Positions 1,673-52,521 of a DNA stretch of 64,000 nt are shown piece by piece (the stretch's first letter is position 1; every line of letters starts with the position of its first letter). The stretch is from Methylobacterium sp. NMS14P (GTDB lineage: Bacteria; Pseudomonadota; Alphaproteobacteria; Rhizobiales; Beijerinckiaceae), in assembly GCF_028583545.1 (NCBI RefSeq), contig NZ_CP087106.1:6121001-6185000 (forward strand), in the 5' to 3' direction. The notes under the pieces are model-generated. The model saw only the letters and a list, made by a program, of their open reading frames with translations, did not search any database and was not told where the DNA came from. The position numbers were made by a program, and so were the translations under genes.

Positions 1673-3847
1673 TCACCGCGGCGGCGGCGGCGGAGGCGCT
1701 GCCTGACCCTGACCCTGGCCCTGCTGCAGCAGCGGCGTGATCCGCTGGACGACGACGCGGCGATTCTCCCGCGACGGGCCCTGCGTGTTCACCTTGAGGT
1801 ACTGCTCGCCGTAACCCTGGGTGGTCAGGTTCTCCGGCGGCACGCGGAACTGCTCGGTCAGCACGGTCGCCACCGCCTGGGCACGCCGGTCCGACAGGGA
1901 CAGGTTGTCGAGCGCGGAGCCGACGGCGTCGGTGAAGCCCTCGATCAGGAACACCTCCCGCGGGTTGGCCTGGATGGCGCGGTTCATCGCGGCGGCGATC
2001 ACCGACAGCTTGGCCGCCTGATCGGGCGTCACAGTGAACGAGCCCGTGTCGAAGGTGATCGTGTTGATGTCGACCGAGCGCAGGCGGGCGCGGAGGTCCG
2101 GGCTGTAGCGGATCTGATCGAGCGTGTACCGGCGATCGACCTGCACCACGGGCGGCGCCGTCAGCGCCTCGTAGACCTCGGCCTCGTCGGCCTGAGCGTA
2201 ATCCACGACGTAGCGGTCGCGCGGGATGCGGATCTCCGGGGGCGGCAGCACCACCACGTCCTCGTAGATCGGGCGGAGCGGGCCGGCATAGCTGTTGTCG
2301 ATCAGGATGAGCTCGCGGCCGTCGCGATAGCGGAGGTAGCGGCGCAGCATCCGCCCGTCGTCGTTCGTGACGGTGACGATCTGCTCGCCGCCGGGCCGGT
2401 CGACGTAGCTGTAGAAGTCGGCGCCCTGCCGCTCGAACCGGTAGCCGCGCGGGTCGAGGGTGCGGAAGCGCTCGTTCTCGTCGTGGCGGATCAGGTAGCC
2501 GTCGCGGTCCTGCACGATGATGCGGCCGGGCTCGCGGTAGTAGGTGCGGCCGTCCTCCCGGAACTCGCGGCGGTCGGTGCGGACCTGCTCGAAGTCGCGC
2601 ACATTGTCGTTCTGGCGGAAGCCGCCGGGGACGTAGCCCGGCTGGCCCGGCCGGTTGAAGGCGTTCGGGTCGGTCGGACGGCCGGGACCGCCCGCGGGCG
2701 GCTGGCCGGGCTGTCCCGGCGGCATCCCGGGCTGCGGCCCACCGGGCGGCGGGGCCTGTCCGGGGGTCGGCGCCTGCCCCGGCGGCACGAACGGCCGTCC
2801 CGGGATCCCGGGGGCCATGTTGGGCGGTACTGGCCGGCCGGGCTCGGCGCCGGGGGCGCCGTTCAGCTGGGCCGGCGTCCGCCCCTCGGGCTGGGCTCCC
2901 TGGGGCTGGAACGGCCGTCCGGGAACGCCCGGCGCCGCGTTGGGCGGCTGCGGCCGGCCGGGCTCGGTGCCGGGACCGGCATTCGGCTGGGCGCGGTTCT
3001 CGGGTTGGCGGTTCTCGGGCTGGCGGTTCTCGGGCTGGCGGTTCTCGGGCTGGCGGTTCTCGGGCTGCGCGTCGAGGCGCTGGACCGGCCGGCCGGGCGC
3101 GCCGGGGGTCGCGTTCGGCGGCTGCGAGCGATCGCCGGGCGCACCCGGTCCGCCGGGACGCTGGCCGGGCGGTCCGCGATCCGGCGCGGCCCGGTCGGGG
3201 GCCGCGTCGCGCTGCGCGGGACGGTTCGGCTGGTCATCCGGGCCGGGACGGTCCCGGTCGGGTGCCTGGCGCTGCTGCGGCGGGGCTGGCGGACGCTCGG
3301 GCCCGGGCCGCCCCTGGGGCGTCGGGGCCTGATCGCGATCCGGTGCCTCCTGACGCTCGGGTGCGGGCCGCCTCGAGGCCGGCCGCTCCTGCGGCCCACG
3401 GTCCGGACGGTCCGGCTGCTGATCCCGCCGGTCCTGCTGTCGGTCCTGCTGACGATCCGGCTGGCGGTCAGGCCGATCCGGCGCCGGGGGACGGGCCGCC
3501 GGCGCCTCCGGACGGTGCTCGGGCGCGCGCTCCCGCGGGGGCGGTTCGGCCTGCGGCTGGCGCTGGGCGGGCGGTTCGGGACGCTCGCGCGGGGGCGGCG
3601 GGGCACGCTCCGGCCGCGGCTCGGGGCGCTCGCGCGCGGCCGGCGGGCCCTGTGGCGGGCCGGGGCGCTCCTGCGGAGGACGCTCGGGACGCGGACCGCC
3701 GTGCGGGGGTTCGCCGCCGCGGGGACCGCGCTCGTCCGGTCCGCCCTGCGCTACCTGGATCCTTCCCGGCGCGGCGTCGGCGACCTGCACGAGGGAGAGG
3801 GCCGGCAGCACCGTGCCGGTGAGGAGGATCAGGCGGAGCAGGCGCAT
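1673..3847 (-). CDS. Proline-rich secreted protein with C-terminal OmpA domain
   Basis: A 724-residue envelope protein. Residues 1-26 are a signal peptide (MRLLRLILLTG...ADAA). Residues about 30-420 are extremely rich in Pro, Arg, Gln and Gly, with no recognisable fold, and include a tandem PENRQ repeat. A middle region (about 425-560) is more ordinary. The C-terminal approximately 120 residues match the OmpA/MotB peptidoglycan-binding domain: TITFDTGSF, EGFTDAVGS, LSLSDRRAQAV and GYGEQYL. Such proteins are exported and grip peptidoglycan non-covalently. The protein ends in a polyproline tail. The role of the long disordered region is unknown; it may span the periplasm or self-associate. Confidence 0.85.
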   Translation of the reverse strand: MRLLRLILLTGTVLPALSLVQVADAAPGRIQVAQGGPDERGPRGGEPPHGGPRPERPPQERPGPPQGPPAARERPEPRPERAPPPPRERPEPPAQRQPQAEPPPRERAPEHRPEAPAARPPAPDRPDRQPDRQQDRQQDRRDQQPDRPDRGPQERPASRRPAPERQEAPDRDQAPTPQGRPGPERPPAPPQQRQAPDRDRPGPDDQPNRPAQRDAAPDRAAPDRGPPGQRPGGPGAPGDRSQPPNATPGAPGRPVQRLDAQPENRQPENRQPENRQPENRQPENRAQPNAGPGTEPGRPQPPNAAPGVPGRPFQPQGAQPEGRTPAQLNGAPGAEPGRPVPPNMAPGIPGRPFVPPGQAPTPGQAPPPGGPQPGMPPGQPGQPPAGGPGRPTDPNAFNRPGQPGYVPGGFRQNDNVRDFEQVRTDRREFREDGRTYYREPGRIIVQDRDGYLIRHDENERFRTLDPRGYRFERQGADFYSYVDRPGGEQIVTVTNDDGRMLRRYLRYRDGRELILIDNSYAGPLRPIYEDVVVLPPPEIRIPRDRYVVDYAQADEAEVYEALTAPPVVQVDRRYTLDQIRYSPDLRARLRSVDINTITFDTGSFTVTPDQAAKLSVIAAAMNRAIQANPREVFLIEGFTDAVGSALDNLSLSDRRAQAVATVLTEQFRVPPENLTTQGYGEQYLKVNTQGPSRENRRVVVQRITPLLQQGQGQGQAAPPPPPPR
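2994..3070 (-). repeat. 15-bp tandem repeat in the OmpA-domain gene
   Basis: About five consecutive copies of a 15-base unit (cgggctggcggttct on the + strand) encode the peptide repeat PENRQ on the minus strand. Four copies are nearly identical; the first has one substitution. The unit is a multiple of three, so copy-number change keeps frame and would only lengthen or shorten the disordered region. Confidence 0.9.
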
Positions 3848-43845: not shown

Positions 43846-46398
43846 CTAGCCGTTGGCCGCCCGGCGGGTGGGCATGATGATCTCCACGAGCGTGCCGTCC
43901 TCCGGCCGAGCGGAGAGCTGCAGGCGGCCGCCGTTGGCCTCCACCAGCGCCCGTGGCAGCGCCAGCCCGTCCTCGACATCGCTCCGCGGAGCCTCAGGCC
44001 GCGGAGCGTGGCCGGCGCCGGTCTCCCGCACCCGCACGGCGATCCCCGCCCGCTCGGCGGATCCGGTGGACACGATGATCTGGCTGCCTGCCGTCGACCG
44101 CCGGATCGCGTTCTCGATCACCAAGCTGGCCGCACGGCTGACCGAAGGCTCGTCGGCCTCCAGGTCGCCGATATCGGTTGAGAAGCTCGTCCGCACGACG
44201 ATGCGGCCCCGTGCCGCCTCGCCCTGGAGGCGGGCGACGCAGCTCGCCACGACGTCGTTGAGGTCGAGGGCGCGGGGCTCCAGGTGGAGCGAGCCGGCCT
44301 CGACGGCGGCGAGGTCCAGCAGCTTCCCGACGCGCTCCAGCATCGCCTCGCCCGAGGCCTTGATCTCGGCGAGGCAGCCTCTGTAGCGCGCGTCCCCGAG
44401 GGGGCCGAACGGCTCCTTCAGCATCGCGCCGGCGAGGTCGATGATCCCGGTCAGGGGCTCGCGGACGGCGCCGTCGAGCCGGCCGAGGGCATCGGCCCGA
44501 CCCGGCGCGGGATCCGGGCTGACGTCGACGCTCCGCTCCGCGGCCTGGCTCTCGGCCCGCGCGATCTGGACCACACGTCGGCCCTGCGCCGCCGCCACGG
44601 TCAGCGACACGGGCCCGCCCGCGAGGCGCGCGATGCGCCGGCCAGGGGGCGTGCCCGTCAGGGCATCGGCGACCGTCAGGACGCTGTCCCCGTCGAACAG
44701 GGTGACGAAGCTGCTCCCGACGATCTCGCGGGGATCGCAGCCGAACAGGCCGGACGCGGCGCGGTTCAGCGCGACGATGCGCCCGGCCTCGTCGATCGTG
44801 ACGACGCCCGTCTCCAGCGCGTCCAGCGTCGCCTCGGCGCTGGCCGTCCGCTCGGTCTCGGCGGCGCGGGCGAGGCGCTCGGCCGTGAGCGCGTCCGCGA
44901 CGTCGGCGTCCTCGACCGGGCGCACGACCAGGCACGTGGCGGTCGCGCCCGCCCAGGGCAGGGCGCCCGCCAGCAGTTCCACGGGGCGGGCCCCGCCGTC
45001 GACCGTCGCGACGGTCGTCCGGCGCGCGGACGGCTCGGGGGACTGCGTCGCGGGAAGACCCGGCAGCAATCTCGAGAGACCGATGCGCACGAGGCTCGGC
45101 AGGTCAGGATGGCCGGTCAGGTCCAGGAAGGCGCCGTTCGCCGCGACGATCGTGCCGTCCCGATGGACCAGCACCGGCAACGGCAATCCGCCGAGGAGAT
45201 CGGTCGCGGGCGGCGGTGCCGCGTCGGCGAGCGGCCCGACGTCCGCCGCGTCCGCGTCGGGACCGACATCGTCGGAGGCCGCCCGGGTCTCCGCCGGAGC
45301 GGCCTGCGGCGCGGGGAACGGCATCACCGCGCCGCTCTCGGTCCTGGGCGACCCGGGTTCGGCCTCGTCACCGGCGTAGCGGGCGCCCAGCGCCCGGGCG
45401 ATCTCGCGGAACGCGGCGTGCTCGTCGTTCGACAGCGGCGCGGCGACGGGGTCCGCGTCGACGGCGACAGGATCCGCGACGGCGCCGGTCTCGGCCGGGC
45501 CAAGGGCGGGCCCGGCATCCTCGCAGGCTGCCGGCACCGGCGTCGCATTCGGCTCCGGTACCGCCTCCGGGGTCGGCTCCGGCGACGCGGACGGCATCTG
45601 GCTCCCGGCCGGGACGCTCCGGATCAGCCCGAAGCCGCCGAAGCCCGAGAAGGCCGCGTCGTCCCGCCCCAGCGGGGCACCCGACAGGTCGACCCGGAAC
45701 GCCCCGGTGCCGGCATCGAGCACCGCCTGTTCGCCGCGGAAGGTGCGCCGGTCGCGCAGGGCCGCCAGCACGGCGTCGGCGCCGGAGAGGCGCCCGCTCG
45801 CCGCCAGGTCCTGCCAGCGCTGCCCGACCAGTCCGGCGAGGGCCTCCGGGCCGGTCAGAGTGGTCAGGACCCCCGCGGCATCGAGGCGCCACAGGAAGCG
45901 GTCGTCGCGCCGCAGCGGCGCGGCCGGGGGCGATCGCGGATCATGGGGCGGCGCGCGCTCCGCCACGGGTCGTTCGGCGTGGACGTCGGGCGGCGCATCG
46001 GCCGGGCGGACGGGGCGGGCGCGGCCCGCCGCCACCGGCGCGGTCGGAATGATGAGGATCGCGGGCCGGCCGTCGGCCTGCGCGCCGCGCGCCAGCCAGC
46101 ACAGAACCGGCGGCGCGATCCGGCGGGCATCGAGGCGCAGGCGCGCGAGGCGGGGCGTGGCGTCGCCCGCCGCCGCCGTCACGATCTGCCGGATCACACT
46201 GGCGAGGGCGGGGCCGGCCAGCGCCGCCGCGAGACCCGCCGCCGCCTCGGACGCGGACAGGATCCGCGCGTCCGACGGGTCGACCACGAGATGCACGGCG
46301 TCGCGCGCGGCCAGCGCGGCCGCCAGGACGGGCAGCCGCTCCCAGGTCGCGAAGGCACTCGCCAGCCCGGGCGGGGCTGCAGCGGCCGTCGGTGTCAC
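43846..46398 (-). CDS. PAS sensor kinase lacking the acceptor histidine (PdhS/DivL-like)
   Basis: An 850-residue soluble protein. The N-terminal half (to about 330) has no firm domain. Residues about 335-355 (EHAAFREIARALGARYAG) resemble a segment of Hyphomicrobiales cell-cycle kinases of the PdhS/PleC group. Two PAS domains begin near 400 and 523. In the dimerisation domain the H-box reads DGAVREPLTGI: glycine (residue 643) stands where the phosphorylated His normally lies. The ATPase domain keeps the N-box Asn (ENAIRRS) but has RETGAGH for D-x-G-x-G. It may act as a signalling scaffold, as DivL does. Start: GTG 46398 with GGAGA; TTG 46431 is weaker. Confidence 0.8.
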   Translation of the reverse strand: MTPTAAAAPPGLASAFATWERLPVLAAALAARDAVHLVVDPSDARILSASEAAAGLAAALAGPALASVIRQIVTAAAGDATPRLARLRLDARRIAPPVLCWLARGAQADGRPAILIIPTAPVAAGRARPVRPADAPPDVHAERPVAERAPPHDPRSPPAAPLRRDDRFLWRLDAAGVLTTLTGPEALAGLVGQRWQDLAASGRLSGADAVLAALRDRRTFRGEQAVLDAGTGAFRVDLSGAPLGRDDAAFSGFGGFGLIRSVPAGSQMPSASPEPTPEAVPEPNATPVPAACEDAGPALGPAETGAVADPVAVDADPVAAPLSNDEHAAFREIARALGARYAGDEAEPGSPRTESGAVMPFPAPQAAPAETRAASDDVGPDADAADVGPLADAAPPPATDLLGGLPLPVLVHRDGTIVAANGAFLDLTGHPDLPSLVRIGLSRLLPGLPATQSPEPSARRTTVATVDGGARPVELLAGALPWAGATATCLVVRPVEDADVADALTAERLARAAETERTASAEATLDALETGVVTIDEAGRIVALNRAASGLFGCDPREIVGSSFVTLFDGDSVLTVADALTGTPPGRRIARLAGGPVSLTVAAAQGRRVVQIARAESQAAERSVDVSPDPAPGRADALGRLDGAVREPLTGIIDLAGAMLKEPFGPLGDARYRGCLAEIKASGEAMLERVGKLLDLAAVEAGSLHLEPRALDLNDVVASCVARLQGEAARGRIVVRTSFSTDIGDLEADEPSVSRAASLVIENAIRRSTAGSQIIVSTGSAERAGIAVRVRETGAGHAPRPEAPRSDVEDGLALPRALVEANGGRLQLSARPEDGTLVEIIMPTRRAANG

Positions 46399-46550
46399 TG
46401 TCGTCTCCAAAGCCCGCGACCTCGAACCCAAACGCGATCCAGACGCTCCGCGGTCCCGCTTTGCCCGAGAAACGCCCGCGACCGTAGCCCTATTGTAAAC
46501 TCCCTCGCGCCGCGACGCTGGACTCTCGGCGCAACCGTCACACGTTTACG

Positions 46551-49405: not shown

Positions 49406-50335
49406 TCAACGCGCCGGGGACGTGTGCGGCCCCTGCACGGTTCGGGCCGCCGGCCCGTCGGCGGGCAGCTCCACCACGTCGACGTCGACGCGCATGCCGA
49501 GATCGTCGCTGGCGAGGCCGAAGAAGGAGCCGTGCAGCGGCACGGCCTGCGCGGGGTCGCGGGTCACCGCCACGCGGATCAGGTCGCGATTGCCCACGAT
49601 GCCGTTGGTCGGGTCGAACTCGACCCAGCCGGCGCCCGGGAGGTAGACCTGCAGCCACGCGTGGGTGGAGCCGCCGCCGACGTGGCGCGCCCGGTCGTTC
49701 CGCGGGTTGTACAGGTATCCGGACACGAAGCGGGCGGCCATGCCGAGCGCCCGGACGCCCTCCATCATCAGCACCGCGAAGTCCCGGCAAGAGCCGAGCT
49801 TCGTGCGCAGGGTCGTCAGCGGGTCCTGCACGCCCTTCTCGGAACGGGCCAGGTAGGTGAAGTTCGCCCGCACGCTGCGCGTCATGGCGGCCAGCAGCTC
49901 CTGCGTCGGGACGCGGCCCTGGGGCGGCAGGAAGCTCCGCGCCCAGGCATCGACCTCGTGCCGCGGGTCCGGCCACTGCCGCTCGATGGAGCGGGCGAGG
50001 TCCGGCATGTCCTCGGCCCCGTAGCCGAACGGGTAGTGGGTCGCGTGCGGCGCCAGCGGGAAGACCGGCGCGTGCTCCGGGGTGTGGTCGAGGGTGATGC
50101 CGCAGTCGAAGGTCAGGGTCTCGGCACGCGTGTCGAAGGTCGCGACCGCCACGCAGTTGCCGAACACGTCGAACAGCCAGCGCAGCGACGCCGGTTCCGG
50201 CGCGATGTCGACGGTCGCCGCGATCAGCCGCTGATCGTAGCTGTCGCGCGGCCGGAACATGATCCGGTGCTCGCCGAAGGCGACCGGACGCCGGTAGCGG
50301 TAGACCGTACGATGGCGGACGGAGAGGATCGGCAA
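49406..50335 (-). CDS. Transglutaminase-like protein with complete triad
   Basis: A 309-residue protein: an N-terminal bacterial transglutaminase-like beta domain (about 1-85; SVRHRTVYRYRRPVAFGEHRIMFRPR) and a core with Cys in KLGSCRDFAVLMM, His in STHAWLQVYLPG and Asp in VEFDPTNGI. The triad is intact, so a thiol peptidase or transpeptidase activity is plausible. The start codon is TTG at 50335, with GGAG nine bases upstream. It lies 73 bases downstream of the NepR-receiver gene on the same strand and 77 bases upstream of the second transglutaminase. Confidence 0.9.
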   Translation of the reverse strand: MPILSVRHRTVYRYRRPVAFGEHRIMFRPRDSYDQRLIAATVDIAPEPASLRWLFDVFGNCVAVATFDTRAETLTFDCGITLDHTPEHAPVFPLAPHATHYPFGYGAEDMPDLARSIERQWPDPRHEVDAWARSFLPPQGRVPTQELLAAMTRSVRANFTYLARSEKGVQDPLTTLRTKLGSCRDFAVLMMEGVRALGMAARFVSGYLYNPRNDRARHVGGGSTHAWLQVYLPGAGWVEFDPTNGIVGNRDLIRVAVTRDPAQAVPLHGSFFGLASDDLGMRVDVDVVELPADGPAARTVQGPHTSPAR

Positions 50336-50408: not shown

Positions 50409-51005
50409 TCAGACCACCGGCGGAGCCGGATCGGCGGCGGCGCGCTCGGCCTCGACGAGCACGTCGAGGGGGCGCCAGGGCTTGGCGATGAAGACGGCCT
50501 CGGTCGGCAGCTCGGGCCGCGGCAGGCCGTGGCCGGAGGTGATCACCAGCCGGGCGCGGGGCCACAGGGTCGCCACCGCGCGGGCGAGCTGGAGGCCGTC
50601 CATCTCACCGGCCAGCCGGACGTCGGCGAAGACCAGCGCGACGTCGCCGCCGCGCGCCTGAAGGACCGACAGGGCGGCCTCGGCGCTGTCGCAGCCGACC
50701 ACGTCGAGCTCGGTCTCCTCCAGCAGGGTCTCGGCTAGGGCGCGGATCTCGGGGTCGTCCTCGACGACGAGGGCGAGGCGCGGCGGATCGGCCTCGGCCG
50801 CCACGACATCCGGCCCGCTCCGGGCGATCGCGTCGCCCTCGCTCTGCCGGACGCGGCGGACCAGGGCGGCGAGGTGTTCCGGCAGGCCCTCGGTGACGAG
50901 ATTATCGTAGAACGACGCCAGTGTCTGACCGATCTGGTCGAGCGGAATACCCGGTGACAGCGTATCGGTGAGCGGCAGGGGTGCGCTCGTCTGGTGCTTT
51001 TTCAA
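50409..51005 (-). CDS. NepR-like domain fused to a response-regulator receiver
   Basis: A 198-residue protein. Residues about 22-52 (DQIGQTLASFYDNLVTEGLPEHLAALV) follow the NepR anti-sigma pattern IGxxLxxxYDxLxxExxPExxxxLL. Residues 76-190 are a receiver: acidic pair in VEDDPE, phospho-acceptor Asp128 (FADVRL), switch residue in TSGHG and Lys175 (IAKPW). In the general stress response, NepR binds EcfG and is removed by phospho-PhyR; here both functions sit in one chain. Start: TTG 51005 with GGGGGAG five bases before. Adjacent transglutaminase genes give no functional clue. Confidence 0.8.
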   Translation of the reverse strand: MKKHQTSAPLPLTDTLSPGIPLDQIGQTLASFYDNLVTEGLPEHLAALVRRVRQSEGDAIARSGPDVVAAEADPPRLALVVEDDPEIRALAETLLEETELDVVGCDSAEAALSVLQARGGDVALVFADVRLAGEMDGLQLARAVATLWPRARLVITSGHGLPRPELPTEAVFIAKPWRPLDVLVEAERAAADPAPPVV

Positions 51006-51125: not shown

Positions 51126-52292
51126 TTACTGCGTGGCGAGGCCGGCTTCGGCGTCGGCATACGCCATGATCCCGGAGACTGCGCGGACGTTCTGGTAGCG
51201 CGTCCCGCGGGTGCTCATCATCGCCTCGAACTTCTCGTGCACCTGCGCGACCGACAGGCTCAGGGGCTTGCGGTGGCGGCCGCGCCCGACGAAGCGCCCG
51301 GCGGCGAAGAAGATCGAGCGGTTGGCGCGGGCCGGGCCCGGCAGCAGGGTCGCCGCGGCGGCGGCCGGCTTGTTCACGACGTTGGTGAGGAACTCCTGGG
51401 CATCGTCCGGCCCGAGGAAGTGGGCGAGGTAGACCTCGCCGAGGGTCAGCTCGCGGCCGATGCGCAGGGCGATGCGGGCCGCGTCACGCTTCAGCATCTC
51501 GCCGGCCATCAGGGCCGACAGGTACGGGTCGCGGCGCAGTTCCAGAACCCGGGCGCGCTCCGCCGGGTCGGTGATCACCGGCCGGTCGTTGGCGTCGGAC
51601 GTGATCAGCGCGGCGTCCTTCTCCAGCCCGTACTTGGCGCCGAAGTCGCGCACCACGCCGAGCCAGGTCCGCTCGATGAACTGGTAGAGGCCCGTCGCCG
51701 AGGAGGTCTTGGCCTGGACCGCCGTGACGAAGCTGGATTCCTTGTCGGCCACCGCCATCAGGAGCACCGGATCGGTCTGGACGGCCTGGGCCGCCCGGAC
51801 GATCGTCTGAACGAGGTGGCGCCGGATCTTCATCGGGCCGAATTCGAGGATGTCGTTCGGGTCGCCGACGGCGCTCTCGGACAGCAGGAAGTCGTACGAC
51901 ACCCGGTCGACCGTGTTGGAGCCGAGCTCGGTGTCGAGGTCGTGCACCGCGGCGAAGCTGGCGGCGGCGCGCAGCGGCGTCTGATCGAGCGGCGTGCTGA
52001 GGGCGACGGTGTGGATCCGCGGGCGCGGCATCGGGATCTCGGTGGCGGCCTCCGCCACCGACACGGCGGGCGACAGGCCGACCTTGGCGAGGTCCACGCC
52101 CGATCCGATCAGCGCGGCGCTGAGCCCGCCGGCGATCATCGAGACGGTGAGCAGCGAGCGGAACAGCGCGGGGCGGCTGCCATGGGCACGGCCCAGCATG
52201 GGCTGCGCGGCGATCACGTCGGCGCGGCCCGAGCCGAAATGGCCCTGCTTACCGGTGATGGTCCTCGGCGATCCGACCGTGCGGCCCTGCAT
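51126..52292 (-). CDS. Lytic transglycosylase (SLT domain), membrane-anchored or secreted
   Basis: A 388-residue protein. The N terminus is cytoplasmic and basic, then a hydrophobic segment (LLTVSMIAGGLSAALIGSGV, about 48-70) that acts as anchor or signal. The C-terminal catalytic region (about 180-280) carries an SLT-type motif: the catalytic glutamate in VADKESSFVTAVQ, and the SSATGLYQFIERTWLGVV segment that follows. It would cleave peptidoglycan glycan strands. Start: ATG 52292 (MQGRTVG), with the frame seven codons longer. It lies divergently opposite alaS and convergently with nothing close. Confidence 0.87.
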   Translation of the reverse strand: MQGRTVGSPRTITGKQGHFGSGRADVIAAQPMLGRAHGSRPALFRSLLTVSMIAGGLSAALIGSGVDLAKVGLSPAVSVAEAATEIPMPRPRIHTVALSTPLDQTPLRAAASFAAVHDLDTELGSNTVDRVSYDFLLSESAVGDPNDILEFGPMKIRRHLVQTIVRAAQAVQTDPVLLMAVADKESSFVTAVQAKTSSATGLYQFIERTWLGVVRDFGAKYGLEKDAALITSDANDRPVITDPAERARVLELRRDPYLSALMAGEMLKRDAARIALRIGRELTLGEVYLAHFLGPDDAQEFLTNVVNKPAAAAATLLPGPARANRSIFFAAGRFVGRGRHRKPLSLSVAQVHEKFEAMMSTRGTRYQNVRAVSGIMAYADAEAGLATQ

Positions 52293-52521
52293 CGTTATCC
52301 CGACTCTCCACACGCCGTTGTGGCGCTACGGACTCACCATCGCTTGACAGATGTGGCGACAACACGGCCGCGCTTGTGGCCGAGTTGCGGCGTCCCGAGG
52401 AGATTTCGGGGCAGGCCGCCCGTGACTCGCGCGGCATCCCTCCTTAAGAGGGCGCCATGCGGGCGCCGGGCGGATGACGCGCGGCCGCCCTTTCCCGTCC
52501 GTACTGCCAGAGTCAGCCCCG

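Follow-up and report, generated by a model that had tools for sequence, protein, structure and literature searches.

A NepR-like module fused to the receiver domain of a response regulator looks like a real and conserved arrangement in many Methylobacterium species. In the window, i.e., the whole stretch of 64,000 nucleotides from Methylobacterium sp. NMS14P that was analysed, the open reading frame 50409-51005 on the minus strand codes for a single chain made up of a NepR-like module of two helices, a linker of variable sequence and a complete receiver domain, here referred to as the NepR-REC protein. In descriptions of the alphaproteobacterial stress switch, NepR is captured by a single receiver protein, PhyR. 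We favour the reading, with a probability of about 45%, that the NepR-REC protein is a response regulator with a NepR-like output that would be gated by Asp128, its module competing for PhyR and so tuning the stress response. The NepR-like output most likely acts on PhyR or, with lower likelihood, on an EcfG sigma factor; the partner, the direction of switching and the kinase are what we infer. The gene, its parts and its neighbours in the window are as follows.

50409..51005, minus strand: NepR-REC response regulator gene (open reading frame and translation; 198 codons, TTG start)
50844..50966, minus strand: NepR-like module (residues 14-54; predicted helices at about 22-38 and about 43-57)
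50781..50837, minus strand: variable Ala/Pro-rich linker (residues 57-75; by dN/dS, low identity and low pLDDT)
50436..50780, minus strand: receiver domain (residues 76-190; Pfam Response_reg; modelled without a regular alpha4 helix)
50622..50624, minus strand: Asp128, predicted phosphoacceptor (identical in 57 of 57 proteins)
50916..50918, minus strand: Ala30, at the position of Arg/Lys in most NepRs (Ala in 57 of 57 proteins)
51126..52313, minus strand: SLT lytic transglycosylase, upstream neighbour (Pfam SLT; context only)
49406..50335, minus strand: transglutaminase-like protein, downstream neighbour (Pfam Transglut_core; context only)

Domain architecture and selection

Residues are numbered with the TTG-encoded residue as 1, and the query for the Pfam scan, the listing of relatives and the structure model was the sequence of 197 amino acids starting at residue 2. 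The receiver belongs to PF00072 with 44.9 bits against a Pfam cut-off of 30.2. Asp83, Asp128, Thr156 and Lys175 are identical in all 57 proteins compared, and residue 84 is variable (D in 35, E in 21 and N in one). The original prediction had placed a NepR helix at residues 22-52 and a complete receiver with Asp128 at residues 76-190; these boundaries were correct, the complete receiver is confirmed by its score and its invariant phosphosite residues, and the constrained NepR-like module is wider than first drawn, spanning about residues 14 to 54. The protein does not belong to the PhyR family (NF006623), for which it scores 26 against a cut-off of 240 bits, and its Pfam scan listing holds no sigma domain.

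Purifying selection acts on module and receiver but not on the linker. The median pairwise dN/dS is 0.17 for the module (residues 14-54) and 0.22 for the receiver, so that the module is constrained at least as strongly as the receiver; it is about 1.26 for the linker (residues 57-74) and 0.89 for the N-terminal tail, the alignment of both being uncertain. Pairs were kept at a dS of 0.1-2, i.e., 1526 for the module, 1590 for the receiver, 1189 for the linker and 820 for the tail out of 1596, and the median identity of linker residues 57-74 to the window copy is 0.17. This constraint on the module speaks against a role as phosphate shuttle or sink, in which the receiver would matter most and the module would merely tether it to PhyR or to a kinase complex. 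Such a role has a precedent in Caulobacter, where a single-domain receiver is a phosphorylation hub in the general stress response pathway (PMC5964349), and receiver-only relatives (classes C and D, see below) would fit it as well; we consider it very improbable.

In the structure prediction, the two NepR-like helices are modelled at low confidence (pLDDT block means of 45-55), the linker pLDDT is also low, and the five models spread widely in mean pLDDT, from 69.6 to 46.9.

NepR likeness of the N-terminal module

The N-terminal module of the window copy matches the Pfam NepR model PF18557 with 20.5 bits (E = 3.6e-4) in the protein scan and with 23.5 bits at the same site in the genome search, both below the cut-off of 25.7, and it is therefore called NepR-like. 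At least three proteins of the same genome (loci L002, L005 and L008, one of them on the second contig) are EcfG sigma factors with sigma regions 2 and 4 and a NepR-type extension; since PF18557 gives these extensions 35.7, 25.2 and 19.8 bits, the value of 20.5 bits falls within the range of fused modules. At family level, NepR matches at E ≤ 0.01 were found in 25 of the 25 members of one alignment (best 5.1e-6). PF18557 and PF00072 are both precomputed in 38 of the 120 relatives listed, out of 496 found, and the other 82 carry PF00072 alone; one relative (P0036) is already named a NepR family anti-sigma factor by one source. The claim that a NepR-like module is fused to a receiver is hence supported for both domains, with the reservation that the NepR match of the window copy lies under the Pfam cut-off; a family lacking any NepR-profile hit, which would have spoken against the original prediction, was not what was found. 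The two roles that the original prediction gave the chain, a self-contained phospho-switch or a decoy, are conjectural.

Profile methods agree with this assignment. Comparing the N-terminus of the family with 106 distinct NepR domains by hhalign (profile against profile) gave a probability of 95.5% over 31 columns with 26% identity. A NepR HMM built from 22 NepR domains without receiver fusions scores 22.6-32.9 bits on all 57 modules (the window copy and its 56 syntenic orthologues), against a maximum of 13.4 in 5700 shuffles. Searched against 11478 frames of 88 loci, the same HMM recovers the N-terminus of 56 of the 56 orthologues with independent E-values of 1e-6 to 2e-3. There were 63 matches with E below 2, these 56 included; of the remaining seven, four are small NepR-like proteins, two are N-termini of class B proteins and one is an unexplained small open reading frame. 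In M. terricola, a small open reading frame near a class B receiver (L064:3076-3306, minus strand) has a weak NepR-like match (E = 0.13). A chance likeness between NepR and a pair of amphipathic helices could account for the sub-threshold score of the window copy and for the 82 relatives in which PF18557 is not precomputed. It was nevertheless rejected on the distance between real and shuffled scores, on the complete recovery of the orthologues in the frame-wide search and on the hhalign result, and is strongly disfavoured to the point of being scarcely credible.

The module departs from NepR at one position throughout the family. Where NepR has a basic residue in the L[RK]..Y motif, all 57 NepR-REC proteins have Ala; the position is R or K in 19 of the 22 NepRs and R in each of the 106 distinct NepR domains, and judging from these two sets a basic residue would seem to be a defining feature of NepR. 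By inspection, helix 2 of the NepR-REC module is more basic than that of NepR. As the basic residue of LR/LK is lost family-wide and helix 2 is more basic, the partner of the module may differ from that of NepR.

Distribution and genomic context

All 111 genomes of the genus contain a match at E ≤ 1e-40, and 90 of them a full-length match, defined by E ≤ 2.2e-69 and a start no later than model position 14. The best matches in the other 21 genomes, one of which is 70% complete, range from 2.1e-49 to 8.0e-42; two of these matches span positions 12-198 and belong to class B or resemble it. The order was searched with 297 genomes, six of them in the genus, and ten candidates scored per genome. Among the 291 genomes outside the genus, the search for a full-length match returned the receiver side only; 26 match at E ≤ 1e-18, with an earliest start at position 41 of 198. 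Conversely, an in-frame receiver was sought beside the NepR matches listed outside the genus (open frames of at least 150 amino acids), with a receiver HMM made mainly from the NepR-REC receiver family, and was found in none of 22.

The best 80 of 160 loci were surveyed, and 56 of them have a same-strand gene for an SLT transglycosylase no more than 1.5 kb upstream; these constitute the 56 syntenic orthologues, which come from Methylobacterium and Methylorubrum plus two MAGs assigned to family level. Each of the 56 keeps the NepR-like module. A NepR-free orthologue set, which would have weakened the original prediction, is thus not what the loci contain, yet receiver paralogues without the module exist and 21 of the 111 genomes have no full-length match.

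In an unrooted tree of 51 receivers, several of whose branches are long, the NepR-REC fusions (class A), proteins with a diverged N-terminus (class B) and receiver-only proteins (class C) are each set apart from all others by a single branch; these branches have support values of 91-93 from a bootstrap that had not settled. Pfam finds a weak NepR match (E = 0.012) in one of five class B proteins and none in the other four. Class B was also considered as a set of decayed orthologues and this was rejected: because none of its members is syntenic and three records contain both class B and the fusion (M. dankookense, M. crusticola and Methylobacterium sp. R2-1), its members are treated as paralogues. 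One relative in the genome under study (L098, C1:5071644-5072009, minus strand) groups with class B at the end of a very long branch, has a diverged N-terminus and carries VVVGRCP in place of the VVVEDDP of the others.

The NepR-REC gene adjoins the lytic transglycosylase gene, and one of two transglutaminase genes follows downstream in 43 of the 56 orthologue loci. It lies about 0.5 Mb from phyR and thus not at the phyR locus; the genome has a single PhyR that passes the family cut-off, and a canonical NepR is encoded next to it. EcfG-type promoters are present on each strand of the nepR-phyR intergenic region. Upstream of the 57 NepR-REC genes, such a motif was found in one case at a shuffle rate of 0.9%; the two promoter patterns used each match once in 57, at different loci and near or at the shuffle rate, and a scan of the whole window gave four matches against 2.5 expected. 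Also in the window, a PAS protein (43846-46431, minus strand) matches HATPase weakly (22.3 bits, under the cut-off) and has no HisKA among the hits listed, so that it is perhaps a degenerate histidine kinase.

Ala30, the basic helix 2, the absence of an EcfG-type promoter and the cell-wall neighbour count against a plain NepR role. Together with the diverged class B, whose N-terminus is barely recognisable, they would suit helices that were repurposed and now pack on the receiver, self-associate or interact with a partner that is not part of the general stress response. Set against this are the NepR pattern that is still recognisable in 56 of 56 orthologues at a median dN/dS of 0.17 and a structure model that lends no support to a tight packing of module and receiver; repurposing is unlikely in our judgement.

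Candidate partners and comparison with known systems

Further links between receivers and NepR-like sequences were found in the same genome and are listed here.

C1 about 2465748-2468138 (L089:4749-7139), minus strand: hybrid kinase with NepR-like tail (tail residues 758-791)
C1 about 3077.4-3078.2 kb (L148:2147-2653), minus strand: class D receiver-only gene, a relative of the NepR-REC receiver
L148 about 1868-2086, minus strand: small gene downstream of class D (same C1 region, about 3077.4-3078.2 kb)

The hybrid kinase combines PAS, HisKA and HATPase domains and two receiver stretches with a NepR-like C-terminal tail, whose PF18557 score exceeds the cut-off in the genome search (28.5 bits) but not in the protein scan (23.4 bits). 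Among the 120 homologues listed, 68 reach at least 15 bits in the tail with the NepR HMM and eight have a precomputed PF18557; the listed relatives named from other phyla (for example Desulfobacterales and Armatimonadetes) lack the NepR-like tail. As the first half of the tail coincides, by inspection, with the last receiver helix, part of its NepR likeness could be receiver-derived.

The class D gene is represented by one match at E ≤ 1e-45 in each of the 111 genomes of the genus. Fifty of its loci were examined (the 30 best and 20 picked lower in the list), and in 33 of them a small protein of one family is encoded downstream on the same strand, its gene beginning 78-379 nt past the receiver stop; the HMM for this family was built from nine proteins of the family itself, and six of these nine originate from the same loci or genomes. 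The NepR HMM reaches E below 1 for the small downstream gene in 13 of the 50 loci. When six of the small proteins were scanned with the Pfam NepR model, one was above the cut-off, two just under it, one weak and two without a match, and Pfam finds no NepR in the small class D neighbour protein of the window genome itself. Since links between a receiver and a NepR-like sequence recur in this way, as hybrid-kinase tail and as adjacent gene pair, they support the reading of the NepR-REC protein as a regulator with a NepR-like output acting on PhyR.

The genus is known for its numerous EcfG and NepR paralogues, the control of which has been explained only in part (PMC4814048). Of the three extra NepR homologues of M. 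extorquens AM1, two co-precipitate PhyR and one fails to do so. Two-hybrid tests showed no EcfG binding for any of them, although interactions may have been missed according to the authors, and overexpression of one of them led to higher methylglyoxal sensitivity (PMC4814048). Phosphorylation of PhyR in vitro is strongly enhanced by NepR (PMC5964349). PhyR is favoured as the partner because AM1 homologues co-precipitate it and none bound an EcfG, and because NepR enhances its phosphorylation; by analogy, the one homologue that does not bind PhyR would count against it.

The module might instead bind an EcfG paralogue directly, with the receiver gating this binding, which would make the protein a phospho-controlled anti-sigma factor. 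Its Pfam family bears the NepR name and is an anti-sigma family, the genome offers the NepR-EcfG proteins described above as candidate targets, and NepR of AM1 bound only two of six EcfG proteins (PMC4814048). The negative two-hybrid results and the lost basic residue of LR/LK weigh against it, and we regard this as quite unlikely.

Under the preferred reading, with PhyR as partner, a histidine kinase would phosphorylate Asp128 of the NepR-REC protein, and this would alter the availability of the tethered NepR-like module. The module may then bind the sigma-like domain of PhyR in competition with NepR, a less certain step; alternatively, it might alter the phosphorylation of PhyR, which NepR reportedly promotes. 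As the outcome, the general stress response would be tuned by a second, independent phosphorylation input.

Among known systems, NepR (PF18557) shares the two-helix pattern IG..L...YD..V.E..P..L..LV with the NepR-REC module; in contrast to NepR, the latter is fused to a receiver, has Ala at LR/LK and is encoded away from phyR without an EcfG-type promoter. A Methylobacterium EcfG with a NepR-like N-terminal extension has been described (PMC4814048), and such extensions resemble the NepR-REC protein in placing a NepR-like module at the N-terminus of a regulator, in the same genus and with similar Pfam scores; their fusion partner is a sigma factor instead of a receiver, and the extensions examined keep R/K. 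The NepR-like module on a receiver appears to be undescribed in the literature searched: no description of a NepR-receiver fusion was found in the titles and abstract openings searched, a search outside of which most subscription papers lie, and the word "receiver" is absent from the main text of PMC4814048. The FATGUY receivers MrrA, SdrG and Mext_0407 are likewise small receiver proteins of the same pathway; as described in PMC5964349, they lack an output domain, which sets them apart from the NepR-REC protein. The hybrid kinase of the same genome also has a receiver covalently linked to a NepR-like stretch, but there the stretch is a tail at the C-terminus that retains LR, shares residues, by inspection, with the last receiver helix and is on the same chain as the histidine kinase. 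PhyR, finally, joins a receiver to a module of the general stress response as the NepR-REC protein does; its sigma-like domain binds NepR, whereas the NepR-REC protein carries the NepR-like module itself, so that the roles are reversed.

It is a tentative and somewhat doubtful generalization that the NepR helix in Methylobacterium is a portable receiver output, present as N-terminal fusion, as C-terminus of a hybrid kinase and as paired neighbour gene, through which several phosphorylation inputs would bypass or compete with PhyR. If it holds, the NepR-REC protein would be a reversed PhyR, with the anti-sigma helix on the receiver in place of the sigma mimic. A receiver bearing its own NepR-like helix would offer phosphorylation a second route to the stress switch.
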